Source: Antedon mediterranea (taxonomy: Eukaryota; Echinodermata; Crinoidea; Comatulida; Antedonidae). From it: 64,000 nucleotides of DNA. Under the pieces are notes generated by a model. The model made no database searches, was not told the origin of the DNA, and was given only the letters and a program-made list of their open reading frames with translations. A program made the position numbers and the translations under genes. How positions within the stretch are numbered: position 1 is the first letter of the stretch; every line of letters starts with the position of its first letter. Of this stretch, positions 44,351 through 55,613 are shown one piece after another. The stretch spans positions 1,741,001-1,805,000 of the forward strand of contig NC_092675.1 in assembly GCF_964355755.1 (NCBI RefSeq), written 5' to 3'.

Positions 44351-47300
44351 ATGGCGGACGCACTGGGCGTAGAAATTCTAAAGCTGGTAAATGAAAATGA
44401 AGCTATAGATACTGTTAAAATTGCTTCAATTTTCGGAAAAGACCATCAGCAGATAGTTGGAGCAGTAAACAGTCTAAAATCTGTAGGAGATGTAAGTATT
44501 TTTTGTTTTATGATGTTCAATCTGTTTCCACTAGCTAGCCCTTATGAACGTCATGTTTGCCACGCGGACTGTACGCGGTATTAGTCAAGTTACAACGGGC
44601 CCCTTTACCGTATGGAGGTGGCCTAGCTTTGCTTGCCCTGCATACTGTGTATGCTTGGTCCTCCAAGCTGTGACAACTTATGTCTATATTGTGAATAAAT
44701 ATTTGAAAAAATGAAAATGCAATATTAATAAAAATTAAAATACTGTTTTTGAAACGGTTTTCAAAATTTGGAAAAAAAAATTTACAATCTGACATCATCA
44801 ATTGATGATTAGTTAAGTTAGGCCCCCGGTTAGGCCTCTCGACAATTATAATAAGATGACATTTGAAAATGTTGTAATGTAATAATCAATGTCAAACATT
44901 TACGGCTTTGTTCCATAGCACAATGTTTGTATTTTGTTTTTATTTTAATCTTTAGGTTATTCAAACAGAACAGCTATCCAACAAACATTGGGAACTAACT
45001 AAAGAAGGCAAGTTGTTTGTGGAACATGGTAGCCACGAGGCATGTGTATATGAAGCTGTGCCATCAGATACTGGAATCAAGCAAGCAGATCTCATGGTAT
45101 TCTATTATGAACTTGTTTACTCTAACAAATAATTGAATGTTTGCTACAACTGTCAACTCTATTAATACCAAACTTGCTTGCCTAAAATGTTTGGTTAATT
45201 ACCCTAAATTCTGAATGTGTTTTTAATGGTAGAAAAAAATTTGAAACCTTTTAGATCTCAAAAATCAAAAAAAGTTTTTGAGGGACTACATTTTTACTAG
45301 ACATCAGCAGTTTTATTTTACATTGTAACAGTCATTTAATATTATCATAAAGCTGTCTACACTATCAAACTTTATGTGACAAAAAAAAATGTGATGTGCC
45401 CATATATGGACATGATGATTTCTTATCACTACCATATTTAGATATATCATTACCATATTTGGGCACATCACACTTTTTTTGTCATACTATTACTAGTTTG
45501 ATAATGTAGACAAAACTTAAGAATCCAAAATATTTTGAACTAGGATTTAAAATCAAACAATTTGTTCTCATCTCTTGTAGAAAACTTCACCAAATGCTAA
45601 AATAGGGTTTAGCAAAGCCATGTCAGCTGGTTGGTTAATAATGGACAAAACTGCTGAAGGAGGACCTGTAGTCAAAAGAAAGGTATTCTACTAATACTAT
45701 ATTGATTTCGTTTAAAAGCATAGAATTGCAGTATTCTAAAAAAAGTACTGTGTGTTATCCCATGTATTATCCCATGCTAATCCCACCCCATCATTTTTGA
45801 CAAATTGTTGTACCATGGAAATATACTTTGTCATATACAGTACTGTAGTTCTGACTCAATTTGTTCTTTTAATTACATTACCTCATGTACCTATATTTAA
45901 GTTTAATCGCATTATCTTGTTATCTGCAGGTACCTTCTATAGAAGACAAAGCCAAATCTCAAGTGATGTTAGTCCAGGCTGGCCAGATAAGTAACATTCC
46001 AGAAAAAGAATGCAAAGAATTAAAAAAGAGAAAACTTATTGTTGAGGTGTAAGTTGATTAATTTTATATCGTCAGTTTTACAAATGCATTGTATATATAA
46101 TAATAAAGAGCTTAAAATAGAGGAACTTTAATATTGGAATCTGGAAGTTATATATTGTTGTCATGATCATATTTCAAGCAGAGGATGTGCGAAGTAGTAC
46201 ATTACAGCCAGTGATCATAACTTGGCCCTCTGAGAGAACAGTTTCTGACTGAAGAGTTCGCCCAGTATAAATAAAATATTTTAATTCAATCATAACTTAT
46301 ATTTGTTAATACAATAACTTTAAATTTTCACTTTATTATTACTTTTTTTGCAGAGTGGTGAAGAGTTTCAAATTAACAAAAGGTTCAGATTTTTCTCTTT
46401 CTGTCAGTAAACTAGAAACGGATTTGACTCCTGAGATGATCTCAAGGTAAACTATTTGGCAATTATTATTTTTTTTGTCTTGTGTTGGCAATTATTATAC
46501 TCTAGCTTTCTGATTGATAATACTAATAATATTTTTTTTTAAATATTTTTTTAAAGAATTTTTCCTGCAATTTAACTATTAATAAGTCTATAAATCAAAT
46601 TTAGCTGATCTAAAGTGTTTAGTAAACTAAGTGTATATAACTAATTTAATTGATATAAATGTAATTAGAATACTATAGATATATCTATACATATGTTATT
46701 GTTATTTACCTTCCCTAAATTTAAAAATGTGATATACTTAAGTATAGAGAATTAATATAATTGTTTGTAACTACTGAGGAGTAGCTTTGCATCAAGCAAT
46801 TTGTACTTTATACTAAGTACATTGAAAATACAGAGAAGAAATTCTCGGGTTTGACTCAAACTCATGACCTCTAGATCACTAGCATGGCGTTCATAACTCT
46901 TTATTTTTTTATATAAGTATTCTCAATGTACTTAGTGTAAAGTACAGATTATGTTAGAGTAGGGCAAAACATCTGACCAATTATTAAAAACATTTTGTCT
47001 TAATATCTTGATTTCTAGTGGTTCTTGGAAAGAGAAGAATTTTAAAGCATATAATTTCAACGCAATGGGTGTAATGCCAGTATCGGGACACCTCCATCCT
47101 CTCATGAAAGTTAGAGCTGAATTTAGACAAATATTTTTAGAAATGGGGTAAGTGTAATCTCCTGTCAGCACCAAGGATTTGTATTTTGTCTTAAGCTCTG
47201 TCTACACTATCAAACTAGTTTTAAAAAAAAATTAGTGTGATGGGCCCAAATATGGTAGTGATATAACATCATCATGTCCATATATGGGCACATCAAATTT

Positions 47301-50300
47301 TTTGTCACATAAAGTTTGATAGTGTAGACAGAGCTTTAGAGAACTTTAACAGTTTAAAGGGGGGTTCCGGGTTTAAAATGAATAGTAAAAAATGTAAAAT
47401 ATATTTGTTTGTCTCTTGAATGGTAAAAGTTTCAATTTATATAAGCGCCCAGTGAAGCAGAACGAAGGCTGTGAAATCAGGCCAGATTACAAGTGCAGCT
47501 ACGGCAAAATCACACTGTGGTTACAAAATAGGAAATTCGTGAAATGGTCCATCTTCCGACGACTCGTTATCATAAACCATATCAATTACTTTTGTAAAAG
47601 TATACTTATCTGATGTAATTTTAGTCGGTCTTCCCATTTATAAAGTCAATTTTTTATGAAAATTCATCAAAACAGTGAAAAATTAGATATGTTTGCACTT
47701 TACGTTTGCCGATTTTCGCACCGACTTAGGGAAAAATCAAAATCAATGAAGCGTAACGTATACTGTACATTCCTGCTGAGGATCGAGCGAGACGACGATA
47801 CACGTGCTCTCTCTGCTGCCCATGCCTGGCATCGTCACGTGATAAGCAGATACAACAATACCAAACTGGTCGGGTCGAGTATACCCCGTCTATAATCACA
47901 ACATAAACGATGTACAGTATTTGATTGAAGGTCGACTCGACCTACCGGAATGGTATAGATAATATAGCTCGAATGAGAGAGTTGGAATATTTGTGTAGTG
48001 CAGCCTATAGTAAAAGGCCTGGTAGTATCAATTCGCATAGGGTCTACTACACTAGCTAGCTCAATTTTTAACTGGGCCGGATCGGCTAGGTCTCCTTCCT
48101 ACTACCTGGTCTACTTGCTTGATGCATGAGTATCCGCTTTTTTGGAGAGTAAACTAAACCTATTTATTTTAGGCCTACTTAGACGATCGGGACACCATAC
48201 GTGTGGACGGCGATCGGACCTTGTTTTGCTTCAATATTTACAGCCGATTTTGTAGAATGTTTTAGGTTTAGATTGTTTAGGAGTTTGGTTGATAGGATGG
48301 GTTTTGTTATTTATGGGCCAATCGTCTAGTAGTAGGCTAGCTAGGCCCATGGGCCCCATTGTTTTAACGTAGCCATCGTGGCATGGAATCCCTAGTCAGA
48401 ATGGCTCTCGCCCATATTATTATTAGGCTAGGCCTAGAGTAGTATTGTACGTGAAGCCGATAATACGATCTGTACTATAGAGGTATAAAAATAGTATAAT
48501 TTATGACTCCGTATCTGTACTAAATTTTGTATTTCATTAAATGTCAAATAAATATATGCTACTACTGTTATTATTACACTTTAGGCCAAGCTTAGAAAAT
48601 CTACAAAAAATGTATTTCACAATGGTGGTCGTCGTTTGACAGGGGAGAGAGATGTAAATTAGTTGACAAACACAACGTACATGACGTCGCGAGTTTGGAA
48701 TCCACTGGTGACGTGATTTTGTGAATATCTCATGAATATTAATGAGCTTCCCTAAGCTGCTAAAAAACAGACTTTCCATGAATTTACCCTAAAATGTATA
48801 TGAAATTTAATTTTTTTAATTTCTCGTTATTACTTCTTCATTCTGAAATGTCTATATTGTTATAATATTTTTTATTTAATAAATAAACGATATTTAAAAG
48901 CAATTTTAAACCCAGAATCCCCCTTTAAATCTGAAATCTATCTGCTGCCACCAATAGTGAATGAAAATGATTTTGCACAGACAGTGCAACATTCTAAACC
49001 ACATAAAAGTCAGAACTAACACTGCTCATAAATTGCAAATTATAAGAATTAAATATTATAGTTGATTTGTTTCTAGGTTCACAGAAATGCCAACCAATAA
49101 CTATGTTGAAAGTTCCTTCTGGAATTTTGACGCCCTCTTCCAGCCTCAGCAACATCCTGCCAGAGACGCTCATGATACATTTTTTATACAAGGTTTGAAA
49201 TTAAAAATGGTTATTTTGTTCTTGATATCAAGTTTGCAGTACACCACGTATATCTAGTTCTGAGTTTCTCAACGTTTGGTTTGGAGTGAGAAACATTTGA
49301 TTCTTGTTCTATTTTATGCTTTGATCCGACGTGGTCATTTGGACTGCATAAACATGATTGGTTCTTCAGACATACATAGATATCAGGGAGATGTTTACAT
49401 CTGGCATACCTCTTTACCATAAATTCTTATGCCCAATATTTGCCCCCCCCCCCCTTCTATGTTTGGATGTATATTTAAAAATAATATATAGCTATTTATA
49501 GTTTAAAAATATTTTTATAAAATATTAAACTTTTCCAGTTTAGGACCTCTGTAATTAATGATACTGATATCATGAGATATCTATTCAATATTTTATGTTT
49601 TATAGATCCAACGTATGCCACAGAATTTCCGATGGAGTACTTGGAAAGGGTGAAGAAGGTGCATTCAGAAGGAGGATTTGGCTCACAAGGGTAAAGCACT
49701 GTCTACACTATTAAACTTTATGTGACAAAAAAAGTGTGATGTGCCCACATATGGTAGTGATATGTCCAAATATAGTATCATGTCCATATATGGACACATC
49801 ACATTTTTTTTCACAAAAAGTTTGATAGTGTAATCAGAGCTTTAGATTGTTGACATTGCTATTACATCACACATAAGCCTGATTTTACAATAAATAATAT
49901 AAGATACAATATTAATTTAAAAGATTGATACAAAAAATTGCATGCACAGATCAAACAGACATCCATGAAAACCATAAAAAAACCATGTGTAAACTTTCAC
50001 TTATTGGCGACCTTTGGTTAAATGATACGCTACTATGCAGATAGCACTCATAATCTCAGTCTACACTATCAAACTTTATGTGCCCATATATGTTATACCA
50101 CTTTTTTGGTCAAACAAGCTTAACAATGGTTCTGTGCATATGTTCTGAGCATGTGTAAAAGGGCTTTTTACTCAGTAAATCAATACGGCGACCCATAATG
50201 ATGGCACCTATTTCTTAGGGATAGAAAAAATAAATTAAAAAATAATCTGGTAATAAATGGTGTTGAAAATGAAAATTTGTAATCATATATTTAGGCATAA

Positions 50301-53300
50301 ATATGACTGGAGTATAGAAGAAGCAAAGAAGAACTTATTACGAACTCACACAACAGCAGTTAGTGCAAGGATGCTGTATAAGCTAGCCCAGGTAATATTA
50401 TGTTCTACAATTTACAATTTTAGTCTAGCATACTCGAAAACTGAAGTCACCATCAGGCATCATCATCTGTCACTTAATATATATAATTTTACCACAAATA
50501 TATTGAGAATTTAAACACATACAAATAAAATGCAGTATATTAATATTAATAATTATATATTACTAATTATAAATATTATAATAATTAATATTACTATTTC
50601 CTATTATCTTGAATAGTTAGAAGAGTTTCATCCAGTGAAGTACTTTTCAATTGACCGTGTGTTCCGTAATGAAACTCTGGATGCTACACACTTGGCGGAA
50701 TTTCACCAGATAGAAGGTGTTGTCGCTGATTACAACCTTGCTCTGGCTGACCTAATTGGTGTTCTACATGCATTCTTTAAGAAATTAGGTAAGTTAAGTT
50801 GACCCATTATCATGAGCAATATAGTAGTGATATGCCAATATGACACATTCATGTCTATATATACATTTTTTTGTAACATAAAGCTGATAGTGTGAACAGA
50901 GCTTTAGGCTACCATGTTTGCATGCTAACCATAAATATTAAGACAATAATTCTTTTCTAAAATTATTTTTACATCAAACCAGGTATAGAGAAACTGCGTT
51001 TTAAGCCAGCTTTTAACCCATACACAGAGCCTAGTATGGAGATATTCAGTTACCATGAAGGCCTAAAGAAGTGGGTGGAAGTTGGAAACAGCGGGGTGTT
51101 CCGTCCTGAGATGTTGCTCCCAATGGGACTCCCTGAAGGCGTGTCAGTCATAGCTTGGGGTCTGTCCCTTGAAAGGTACGTGCTATTTCTATTCCTTCTG
51201 TTATGGTCTGTTGATCCTGTCACAGTCTATTCGTCTATACAGGCTATTTATTTACTTATTATAATGTACTAGTTTTTAGTGGGTCTCCTATCACAAGCCC
51301 ATGGGGTTTCCTGGAGCTCCCTTTCATCTTATTTAATTTTTTTGTTTTCTTCCTTTTTTTTTGTATGTGTATTGTGAGGTGAATAAAACAGATTGATTGA
51401 TTGATAAGATTTTTTTTCTGAATTGGATGAATAAATGTGTTTGTAACCTTTATGTTTTAAATGTGACATTGTTGTGATTACCGTAGACAAGTCAGACATT
51501 AGTGATAAATTCAACCCGACTTGGTGACACAGATTGTAAAGGATAACGATTTGTCTTGCTTTAATTCTTCTTCTATGTCAACTGTAAAATAAAATAGTGA
51601 TAACAAATTCTTAATAAGTTGCAAGTTGTAACATTAAAATAAAATGTACAAAATACTGTATAAATGTACAATTTACAGTATTATGGAAACGTTTTGAAGG
51701 TCTGAAGTCAAATATGGCAATATAATTGTGATTTGTGATATGTTAAGCTCTGTCTACACTATCAAACTAGTTTGAATAAAAGTGTGATGTATCCAAATAA
51801 ATATGCCCAAATATGGTAGTGATATGACATCATTGTGTCCATATATGGGCACATTTGTTTGTCACATAAAGTTTGATAGTGAAGAAAGAGCTTAATGCTT
51901 CAAATGCTAGATTGCCTTGACTATTTAGGAAAAATATCAATGTATTAGGCCTAAACCTGATAAATGTTCAATGTACAACATTATGGAACCATTTTCAAAG
52001 TAAGGTCAGCTTTAGGTCAAATGGAAATTTAGGCGTGATTTGTCTAATTTTATTATCCTGTCCAAATACAAAAAAAAACGTAATTCTTCAAATGCTAGAT
52101 TGCCTTGAATATTTCGGGGAAATATTAATGTACTAAACCTGATAAATGTTCAATGTAGAACATTATGGAAACATTTAGTGGAATTAACTATAAATGTACT
52201 CCCTGATAAATGTTATAACAAATCCGTCATAGCAGTTTCATGAAGATTTACTTCCTCTCTAACAATACATGCTAATCCATTATTCACAAGCTATTTCCTT
52301 TAATTATATCATAATAGCATGTAATACTTAACACATTCAATTAGTAAGGTGTCAGAAGTAGCCTACTTGTGATGTAATAGCTTTTGTTACACTGTACTGT
52401 ACTTGTTAGGGTCATACCATTTAGTGTGTAATTGATAGAAGACTTTAACAATAGGATAAAAGGTTTTATTATGTACTATCATGGTAATATGGTATCTTGT
52501 GAAAAAAAAAAAATACAAAAATACAAATTCTTCCTGCTAACCAAAAGCATTGTAAAACGTTCCAACTGACCTCATTTTGAGACAACATCCACCACCCTGT
52601 TATGGTGTCAGAAACATCCCTACAGTGGGGTTTAAAGTCCCCAGTGGACTTACATTAACCATTTTATTTATTTATTTTATTAAAACATATTTAGGCAGGA
52701 TAACATAATTCAGAAAAAAAAGATCACAAAATTTCTGTTTTCAATATGGTCCTGCAATGACCACAGGCTCAATTGACTAAAGCACTGTCTACACTATTAA
52801 ACTAGGTTGACAAAAAATATATATATACCACATCACATTTTTTGTCACATAAGCTTTGATAGTGTAGACAAGGCTTTACATTAACCACATCATAGGCTAA
52901 ATTGACTAAGACTGGACCAATTCAAACACTGGCTAAAATTTTCTCAGCATTAAATTAGACTGGTTAATTTTACCGACAGTAGTCCAATTTGACCATGTGA
53001 CTCTGGTAGGTTCATGACCTTAACCATGCGCTTCAACTTAAATTTTGTAAACTTATGATAAAACTAATTGCGTGAAATTATCCAAGTGCAATTGGTCAAA
53101 TTTTTCTGATGGCCTTGGGTAAAGTTACCTTTTTCAAGTCCAGGAGTTTATAAATAAATTTTACATAAGCTTCATTAAAAAAAAGAAATATGATGTTTAC
53201 TTACCTATTCCATGACCTATGATTCCTTATTATCCATTAATATCAGGCAGCAGTATCCAAAAGGCTCACGGTATAATTATCTTGGCCTGTGTGCAGCTTT

Positions 53301-54042
53301 TAATCAAAGTCAGGCTGAAACAAGGAGTGGAATTAATTGCTGCATCTACTTCTAATAATGAAAAGCAAGCTTTATATCAGAATATAATAGTCTCTGTCTG
53401 CTCATTAATGTTCCACTGTAAAGTAATAATTGTCACGCTAGAATGATGTACGACGATTGTTTGAAAGATAGTCATATTTCAGGATTATTATACTGAAAAC
53501 GCAATGTAACTTTCGTCGATACAATATTTTAATATTTGAAATGAATACTATTTACAACCCATGAACACAAATTTGTTTTTAAATATCAAGATAAAGGAGA
53601 CTTGTAAAACATAGGGGAGACTATTGGAAAGCTACTAGCCTAGGTCTAGACCCAAACCAAAATAGTTCCTACCTTGACAAAAACACTGAAGTGTACTTTA
53701 ATTTTAATATTGGATGGGCTGGTGGTAGAATATACAAAGCTCTGTCTACACTATCAAAGTGTGATGTGCCCAAATATCACATTTTGATAGTGTAGACAGA
53801 GTTTTACAGTCAGTTACCTAACAGTACTTCAAAATGATATTATTATTTATATTTATTTATATAAAATACTGTATAAGATTAGTAGCTACAATTTAAAATT
53901 ATAACATTAAGTTATTATTTTTGTTTTTTGTTTTAGACCGACGATGATTAAATATGGAATTGATAATATTCGAGAACTAGTTGGTCATAAGGTTAACCTG
54001 CAGATGGTTCAGGAGAATGGTATATGCAGATTAGACAAATGA
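44351..54042 (+). CDS. FARSA: Phenylalanyl-tRNA synthetase alpha subunit, cytosolic
   Basis: Catalytic alpha subunit of the alpha2-beta2 class II enzyme that charges tRNA-Phe. Twelve exons keep frame and give 497 residues (human about 508): 44351-44491, 44956-45096, 45581-45682, 45930-46048, 46354-46446, 47019-47147, 49077-49192, 49606-49690, 50295-50391, 50617-50788, 50983-51175, 53937-54042. The N-terminal winged-helix region ([26 protein letters not shown]) precedes GFSKAMS. Class II motif 1 ([16 protein letters not shown]), motif 2 ([19 protein letters not shown]) and motif 3 ([14 protein letters not shown]) are intact, as are [19 protein letters not shown] and [15 protein letters not shown]. 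Start choice: ATGGCGGACGC matches the expected MAD start. Two points are odd. The intron 8 donor is embedded in a MITE end, and the junction codon before KYDW gives GSQGHKYDW, with His where Tyr is usual. Introns carry many MITEs. Confidence 0.96.
45348..45519 (-). mobile_element. MITE family A copy in FARSA intron 2
   Basis: Ends TAAAGCTGTCTACACTATC and TTTGATAATGTAGACAAAAC. The interior CCATATATGGACATGATGAT and CCATATTTGGGCACATCACA matches the family. Confidence 0.85.
46800..46950. mobile_element. Inverted-repeat element with tRNA-like centre, FARSA intron 5
   Basis: Arms TTTGTACTTTATACTAAGTA and TACTTAGTGTAAAGTACAG are inverted. The centre, read on the minus strand, has a tRNA/SINE-like stretch (CTAGAGGTCATGAGTTTGAG). 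It lies less than 100 bases before the exon 6 acceptor. Confidence 0.6.
47191..47338 (+). mobile_element. MITE family A copy in FARSA intron 6
   Basis: TTAAGCTCTGTCTACACTAT ... AGTGTAGACAGAGCTTTA. Interior GGGCCCAAATATGGTAGTGA and TCCATATATGGGCACATC. It sits 15 bases upstream of a larger TIR element. Confidence 0.9.
47353..48929. mobile_element. 1.58-kb TIR transposon-like element in FARSA intron 6
   Basis: Left end TTTAAAGGGGGGTTCCGGGT followed by TTAAAAT. The right end ATTTTAAACCCAGAATCCCC followed by CTTTAAA is its inverted complement with three differences, about 27 bp in all. TTAA at both edges could be a target duplication. The interior is 1.5 kb with only short ORFs (65-80 codons), none recognised as transposase, so it appears non-autonomous. 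A TAGGCCTAG-rich, CpG-containing segment lies at 47930-48450. Confidence 0.75.
49692..49844 (+). mobile_element. MITE family A copy abutting FARSA exon 8
   Basis: TAAAGCACTGTCTACACTAT starts two bases after the last base of exon 8 (49690), so the intron's GTAAAG donor is mostly MITE sequence. It ends GTTTGATAGTGTAATCAGAG + CTTTA at 49844. The interior is GCCCACATATGGTAGTGATA. Confidence 0.9.
50055..50121 (+). mobile_element. MITE family A fragment
   Basis: CTCAGTCTACACTATCAAAC and TTTATGTGCCCATATATGTT, then TTTTTTGGTCAAACAAGCTT. Heavily deleted. In FARSA intron 8. Confidence 0.6.
50821..50906 (+). mobile_element. MITE family A fragment
   Basis: Right half only: ATAGTAGTGATATGCCAATA, TGTCTATATATACATTTTTT, and AGCTGATAGTGTGAACAGAG with CTTTA. 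In FARSA intron 10. Confidence 0.7.
51380..51410 (+). mobile_element. LINE-like 3' tail
   Basis: GAATAAAACAGATTGATTGA followed by TTGATAAG: an AATAAA plus TGAT microsatellite tail of the same style as the LINE end at 35.3 kb. The 5' limit of the element is not visible. Confidence 0.4.
51743..51894 (+). mobile_element. MITE family A copy in FARSA intron 11
   Basis: TTAAGCTCTGTCTACACTAT ... AAGTTTGATAGTGAAGAAAG. Interior GCCCAAATATGGTAGTGATA and CCATATATGGGCACAT. Confidence 0.9.
52665..52758. repeat. Dispersed repeat pair, copy 2
   Basis: TTAGGCAGGATAACATAATT and CACAAAATTTCTGTTTTCAA plus TATGGTCCTGCAATGA match 38290-38395 with few differences. In FARSA intron 11. Confidence 0.75.
52778..52878 (+). 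mobile_element. MITE family A, short copy
   Basis: TAAAGCACTGTCTACACTAT and CTTTGATAGTGTAGACAAGG with a shortened interior of about 50 bases containing a TATATATA run. Confidence 0.85.
53735..53806 (+). mobile_element. MITE family A, minimal copy
   Basis: AAAGCTCTGTCTACACTATC and TTTTGATAGTGTAGACAGAG flank only about 30 bases (GTGTGATGTGCCCAAATATC), giving a near-hairpin of 72 bp. In FARSA intron 11, about 130 bases before the last exon. Confidence 0.85.
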
Positions 54043-55059: not shown

Positions 55060-55490
55060 AGTATGGCATGCTGTGTAGCCATGCAATTCAACTGGTAATG
55101 TGTATAGGCATTATACTGCATTTATGAATGTATTGAATGCTGTAGCCTACCATGCAATTCAACTGGTAATGTGTATAGGCATGATACTGCATTTATGAAT
55201 GTATTGAAGGCTGTAGCCTACCATGCAATTCAACTGGTAACGTGTATAGGCATGATACTGCATTTATGAATGTATTAAAGGCTGTAGCCTACCATGCAAT
55301 TCAACTGGTAATGTGTATAGGCATGATACTGCATTTATGAATGTATTGAATGCTGTAGCCTACCATGCAATTCAACTGGTAATGTGTATAGGCATGATAC
55401 TGCATTTATGAATGTATTGAATGCTGTAGCCTACCATGCAACCAACATGGTAATGTATAGACTTTATACTGCATTTATTAACCTTGCTAC
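55060..55490. repeat. 71-bp tandem repeat, six copies
   Basis: CCATGCAATTCAACTGGTAA recurs at 55079, 55150, 55221, 55292 and 55363, and in diverged form (CCATGCAACCAACATGGTAA) at 55434: a constant 71-bp period. Each unit also has GTGTATAGGCATGATACTGC. It lies 1 kb past FARSA, and a family A MITE begins right at its end. Confidence 0.95.
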
Positions 55491-55613
55491 TAAAGCTCGG
55501 TCTACACTATCAAACTAGTTTGACAAAAAATGTGTGATGTGCCAAATCATCATGTCCATATATGTACAACACATTTTTTTGTCACATAATGTTTGATAGT
55601 AGACAAAGCTTAA
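55491..55613 (+). mobile_element. MITE family A copy
   Basis: TAAAGCTCGGTCTACACTAT, AACTAGTTTGACAAAAAATG and TCACATAATGTTTGATAGTA with AGACAAAGCTTAA. The flanking 71-bp array appears to continue weakly after it (CATCCAACCTGGTAATGCAT at 55633), suggesting insertion into the array. Confidence 0.85.

Follow-up and report, generated by a model that had tools for sequence, protein, structure and literature searches.

An abundant miniature transposon adjoining the 5' splice site of FARSA intron 8 in Antedon mediterranea

The FARSA gene and its exon 8/intron 8 junction

The window (the whole stretch of 64,000 nucleotides analysed here) contains a twelve-exon gene at positions 44351-54039 that encodes the cytosolic phenylalanyl-tRNA synthetase alpha subunit (match to human FARSA, 3l4g, E 4.6e-218). 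The spliced product aligns with human FARSA across GSQG|HKYDW with no gap and with no residues missing relative to the human protein. Donor and acceptor are thereby set at 49690/49691 and 50294/50295, respectively; homology across the junction thus bears out the end of exon 8 proposed in the initial annotation. The letters in the interval 49680-49700 read GGC TCA CAA GG|G TAAAGC. FARSA is present in one copy in the 354-Mb assembly, and the protein is therefore not supplied by any second gene. Since this essential, single-copy gene is intact, we infer that its GTAAAG donor is in use. The features at the junction are as follows:

49606-49690, forward strand: FARSA exon 8, ending in a codon split GG|G (phase 2), placed by protein homology to human FARSA and splice positions
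49691-50294, forward strand: FARSA intron 8, GTAAAG...TTTAG (GT...AG), 604 nt
49691-49696, forward strand: 5' splice site GTAAAG, in which G is host, TA(A) target duplication and the remainder MITE terminus
49692-49844, forward strand: MITE of the AGCTCTGTCTACACTATC family (TAA|AGCACTG...CAGAGCT|TTA), 153 nt counting the flanking triplets
49692-49694, forward strand: left flanking triplet TAA, a TA or TWA target duplication
49842-49844, forward strand: right flanking triplet TTA; the next base, G, completes a GCTTTAG end, acceptor-like and unused by FARSA
50054-50096, forward strand: second MITE terminus, incomplete, within intron 8
50295-50391, forward strand: FARSA exon 9, placed by protein homology and splice positions

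The MITE and its family

The element has the hallmarks of a MITE, being 153 nt long with inverted ends, no coding capacity and 14,109 exact termini genome-wide. Of these termini, 8,502 are exact TAAAGC-type occurrences of the 17-mer TAAAGCNCTGTCTACAC and 5,607 are exact 17-base ends of the TTAAGC type, both counted in 354 Mb; the reversed control of the former gave 0, so the match is not due to chance. Both the coordinates 49692-49844 and the abutment of a MITE terminus on the donor at a TA/TWA target had been proposed earlier, and both are confirmed here. As judged from the sequence, a small and very common transposon thus lies within a 5' splice site that an essential gene already possessed, and has rewritten the outer bases of the site only.

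Full-length relatives elsewhere share 81-88% identity with the FARSA copy, which diverges by 8.4% from a 30-copy consensus. The insertion is consequently neither fresh nor a recent polymorphism, and an empty allele is unlikely to be encountered among sibling individuals.

Target site and the donor before insertion

Examination of the bases outside unbiased MITE ends shows a TWA flank, preceded preferentially by C (43-47%) or G (20-29%), with T one position further out (53-67% at position -2). A strict TWA duplication would make the two flanking triplets identical; of 41 unpinned copies, 24 have such matching TWA triplets, where independent ends would give about 19. The combination found in FARSA, TAA on the left and TTA on the right, occurs in 14 of the 41, and the opposite arrangement, TTA/TAA, in three. 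In view of these flanks and this level of agreement, the FARSA insertion may reflect duplication either of TA or of a TWA triplet that was later altered.

Three candidate donors may accordingly be written for the site prior to insertion: GTAGAT for a TA duplication (empty site GTAGATTG), GTAAGA for TAA (GTAAGATT) and GTTAGA for TTA (GTTAGATT). In the empty-site form, the latter two alternatives read GTAAGATTG (TAA) and GTTAGATTG (TTA). The initial annotation gave GTAGATTG as the sole pre-insertion sequence; it stands as one of three readings, as the TAA/TTA flanks also allow GTAAGATTG and GTTAGATTG. Under all three duplication readings, GT preceded the element. The view that the MITE altered the donor is therefore retained, whereas the stronger claim that it supplied the 5' splice site is not, the preserved GT being of host or target-duplication origin and the MITE contributing only from about position +4/+5. 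A search for empty sites by joined flanks produced nothing convincing in 360 kb of loci, the joined flanks of eight other MITE copies retrieved self-matches only genome-wide, and no FARSA paralogue that could represent an empty allele was found in the 354-Mb assembly.

It might also be proposed that the MITE created the intron itself, in the manner of an introner, as an element with GTAAAGC...GCTTTAG ends would splice out exactly; the segment 49691-49845 indeed has GT at its left junction and TTTAG at its right, and these ends are introner-like. Reading on from 49846, however, yields ATTGTTGACATTGC..., which is not FARSA, and the true acceptor at 50294 lies 449 nt further on, with no loss of residues relative to human. 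In an introner, both splice sites would lie at or adjoin the element ends, whereas here the element terminates at 49844. The next exon of the Argonaute gene described below likewise begins well past the element. An introner origin of FARSA intron 8 is thus highly improbable and is refuted unless the downstream 449 nt are themselves a later insertion. As a separate observation, the segment 49691-49845, by virtue of its GT and TTTAG junctions, could in principle be removed as a cryptic intron.

Strength of the donor

Donor strength was computed as simple pairing with the 5' end of U1. The present FARSA donor, GTAAAG, scores -6.2 kcal/mol, compared with -5.9 for GTAGAT, -8.9 for GTAAGA and -5.0 for GTTAGA, such that the strengthening suggested in the initial annotation is either undecided or fails. 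That the insertion converted a weak GTAGAT into a stronger GTAAAG is consistent with the TAA/TTA flank class, which accords with a TA duplication, and with the shift from -5.9 to -6.2. This difference is negligible, however; the older donor would have paired better (-8.9) under a TAA duplication, and in two other genes (Argonaute and L061, below) the same replacement weakened the donor from GTAAGT (-10.6 and -12.2, respectively) to GTAAAG (-6.8). We consider strengthening rather improbable. Among the remaining FARSA donors, GTATTC (twice), GTAAAC and GTAATA lack G at position +5, and GTTTGA lacks A at positions +3 and +4; GTAAAG is therefore within the gene's own range.

The predicted fold of intron positions +1 to +157 has an energy of -75.7 kcal/mol, against a mean of -27.7 for shuffled sequences (z -13.8). 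In this fold, the lowest part of the hairpin stem includes donor positions +2 to +6, for which the predicted unpaired probability is 0.00-0.04. The predicted hairpin could hinder the FARSA donor. The insertion may then have been non-neutral, with U1 access or ADAR editing as routes by which splicing of FARSA would be weakened or regulated, for which the stability of the fold and the pairing of the donor would argue. Against this, equilibrium folding takes no account of timing, U1 having the opportunity to bind while the far arm is still untranscribed, and other FARSA donors are also partly paired by prediction; most of the sister donors in other genes are more open. On balance, we regard a non-neutral effect as unlikely, albeit less so than strengthening.

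Recurrence in other genes

The base preceding the 8,502 TAAAGC ends is G in 1,627 cases; GG precedes 79 ends and AGG precedes 31. Among the 79 GG|TAAAGC copies, 30 were read, FARSA being outside this set, and the same MITE-donor junction was recognised in two genes by homology and, provisionally, in four more. In the Argonaute gene (L039, 1490-1510), the exon ends AAAG|GTAAAGC, and the alignment of human AGO3 with the spliced product runs through the junction (E 1.7e-43). In HIBCH (L053, 1490-1510), the exon ends ...THFVESEK|GTAAAGC and is aligned with 3bpt to its last residue (E 3.8e-37). The provisional cases are L043 (a coiled coil), L056 (an EF-hand protein), L061 and L063, whose exons would end at the MITE terminus, near position 1501 on the donor strand; all four have open frames, and plausible next exons were found for L043, L056 and L061. 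L061, which we take to be SMYD4-like, shows weak TPR matches only. The FARSA event is thus not unique: at least two, and probably six, other genes appear to carry the same junction, as in a recurrent, tolerated accident.

The Argonaute gene is the one homology-verified sister case in which the right flank is intact. Rejoining its flanks with one TAA gives the canonical donor AAAG|GTAAGTC, and the same operation on L061 gives AAG|GTAAGTAG, likewise canonical. The rejoined flanks point to existing donors that were struck by the element and weakened at positions +5/+6.

Extrapolation from 360 kb gives about 2.45 million GGTA and 0.78 million GGTAA sites on both strands. If 50,000-100,000 donors of the GGTA(A) type are assumed, donors would make up a few per cent of these sites, and a handful of hits among 79 copies would be expected. 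Six donor cases in 30 correspond to a binomial P of 0.0002-0.07 at an assumed donor density of 3-10%. The observed number may therefore be somewhat above chance; enrichment is not claimed, as only two cases are proven by homology and the intron count is assumed. Any excess could be explained by the preference of the MITE for G after TWA. A more far-reaching proposal, that the family is systematically splice-compatible, converting G|GTAAG to G|GTAAAG, replacing intron starts repeatedly beyond chance and tying its hairpin to each donor, seems to us doubtful, about as much so as strengthening. On the acceptor side, inspection by eye of 76 ends in which G follows TWA revealed no exon starting exactly there; in L054, an ING-like exon begins about 20 nt past the MITE end.

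A tolerated overwrite and its relation to known systems

Very probably, the junction represents a tolerated MITE overwrite of the pre-existing donor of FARSA intron 8, an accident that recurs in other genes. The intron would have existed beforehand, with a donor beginning GTA or GTT, and the MITE would have inserted on the TA (or TWA) that starts at donor position +2, the location where it is now found. The duplicated target would have restored GT(A) and the MITE terminus added (A)AGC, so as to form the present GTAAAG, presumably still recognised as a donor. Only about +4/+5 and +6 would have been altered; other FARSA donors vary there too, which would account for the tolerance of the insertion. 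Recurrence may be ascribed to the extreme abundance of the element and to the overlap of its target, (C/G)TWA(G/C), with the donor consensus G|GTAAG.

Introners with target-site duplications and terminal inverted repeats resemble DNA transposons and recruit a splice site partly from the target duplication (Gozashti et al. 2022, PMC9860276). The FARSA element shares both its terminal inverted repeats and this partial use of the duplication; unlike introners, it adjoins only the donor of a pre-existing intron, the acceptor being 449 nt beyond. Within the PHIS superfamily, PIF/Harbinger elements generate a TWA duplication and NuwaII elements use a C|TNA|G target (PMC4482050). Like these, the FARSA MITE family has TWA flanks with C/G outside. 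Its outer triplets are mostly TWA; in contrast to PIF/Harbinger, the duplication is not clean, being matched in the 24 of 41 unpinned copies noted above and replaced by TAA/TTA in 14. The resemblance to the NuwaII target is one of related preference, and the C and G frequencies show that it is not strict. PF13359-type transposases are abundant, with 150 PF13359 matches in the genome; no autonomous partner bearing the MITE ends was identified.

MITE-associated alternative splice sites have been described in mulberry (PMC6593561). In both systems MITEs are found at splice sites, but those of mulberry are involved in alternative splicing and exonization, whereas in FARSA it is the regular donor, in an essential gene, that appears to have been rebuilt in place. 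An abundant MITE that targets TA/TWA can thus strike donors without destroying them, since its terminus provides an acceptable substitute for positions +4 to +6, and the affected genes offer a natural series for gauging the extent to which the 5' splice sites of essential genes withstand overwriting.

Other occurrences of the MITE end and neighbouring repeats

A laminin-like gene (L018, near 2956, reverse strand) has an exon that ends CAG|GTATG, with the MITE beginning at about intron position +6. On contig C1, MITE termini at 410889-412375 are spaced by 42 bases or multiples thereof and form a tandem array of the MITE end; a comparable array at 1406556-1410619 has a spacing of 92 bases and multiples. 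In the window itself, positions 55079-55515 contain a tandem repeat of about 71 bases, seen as repeated YCIYECIE...NSTGNVYRHDTAFMNVL translations.
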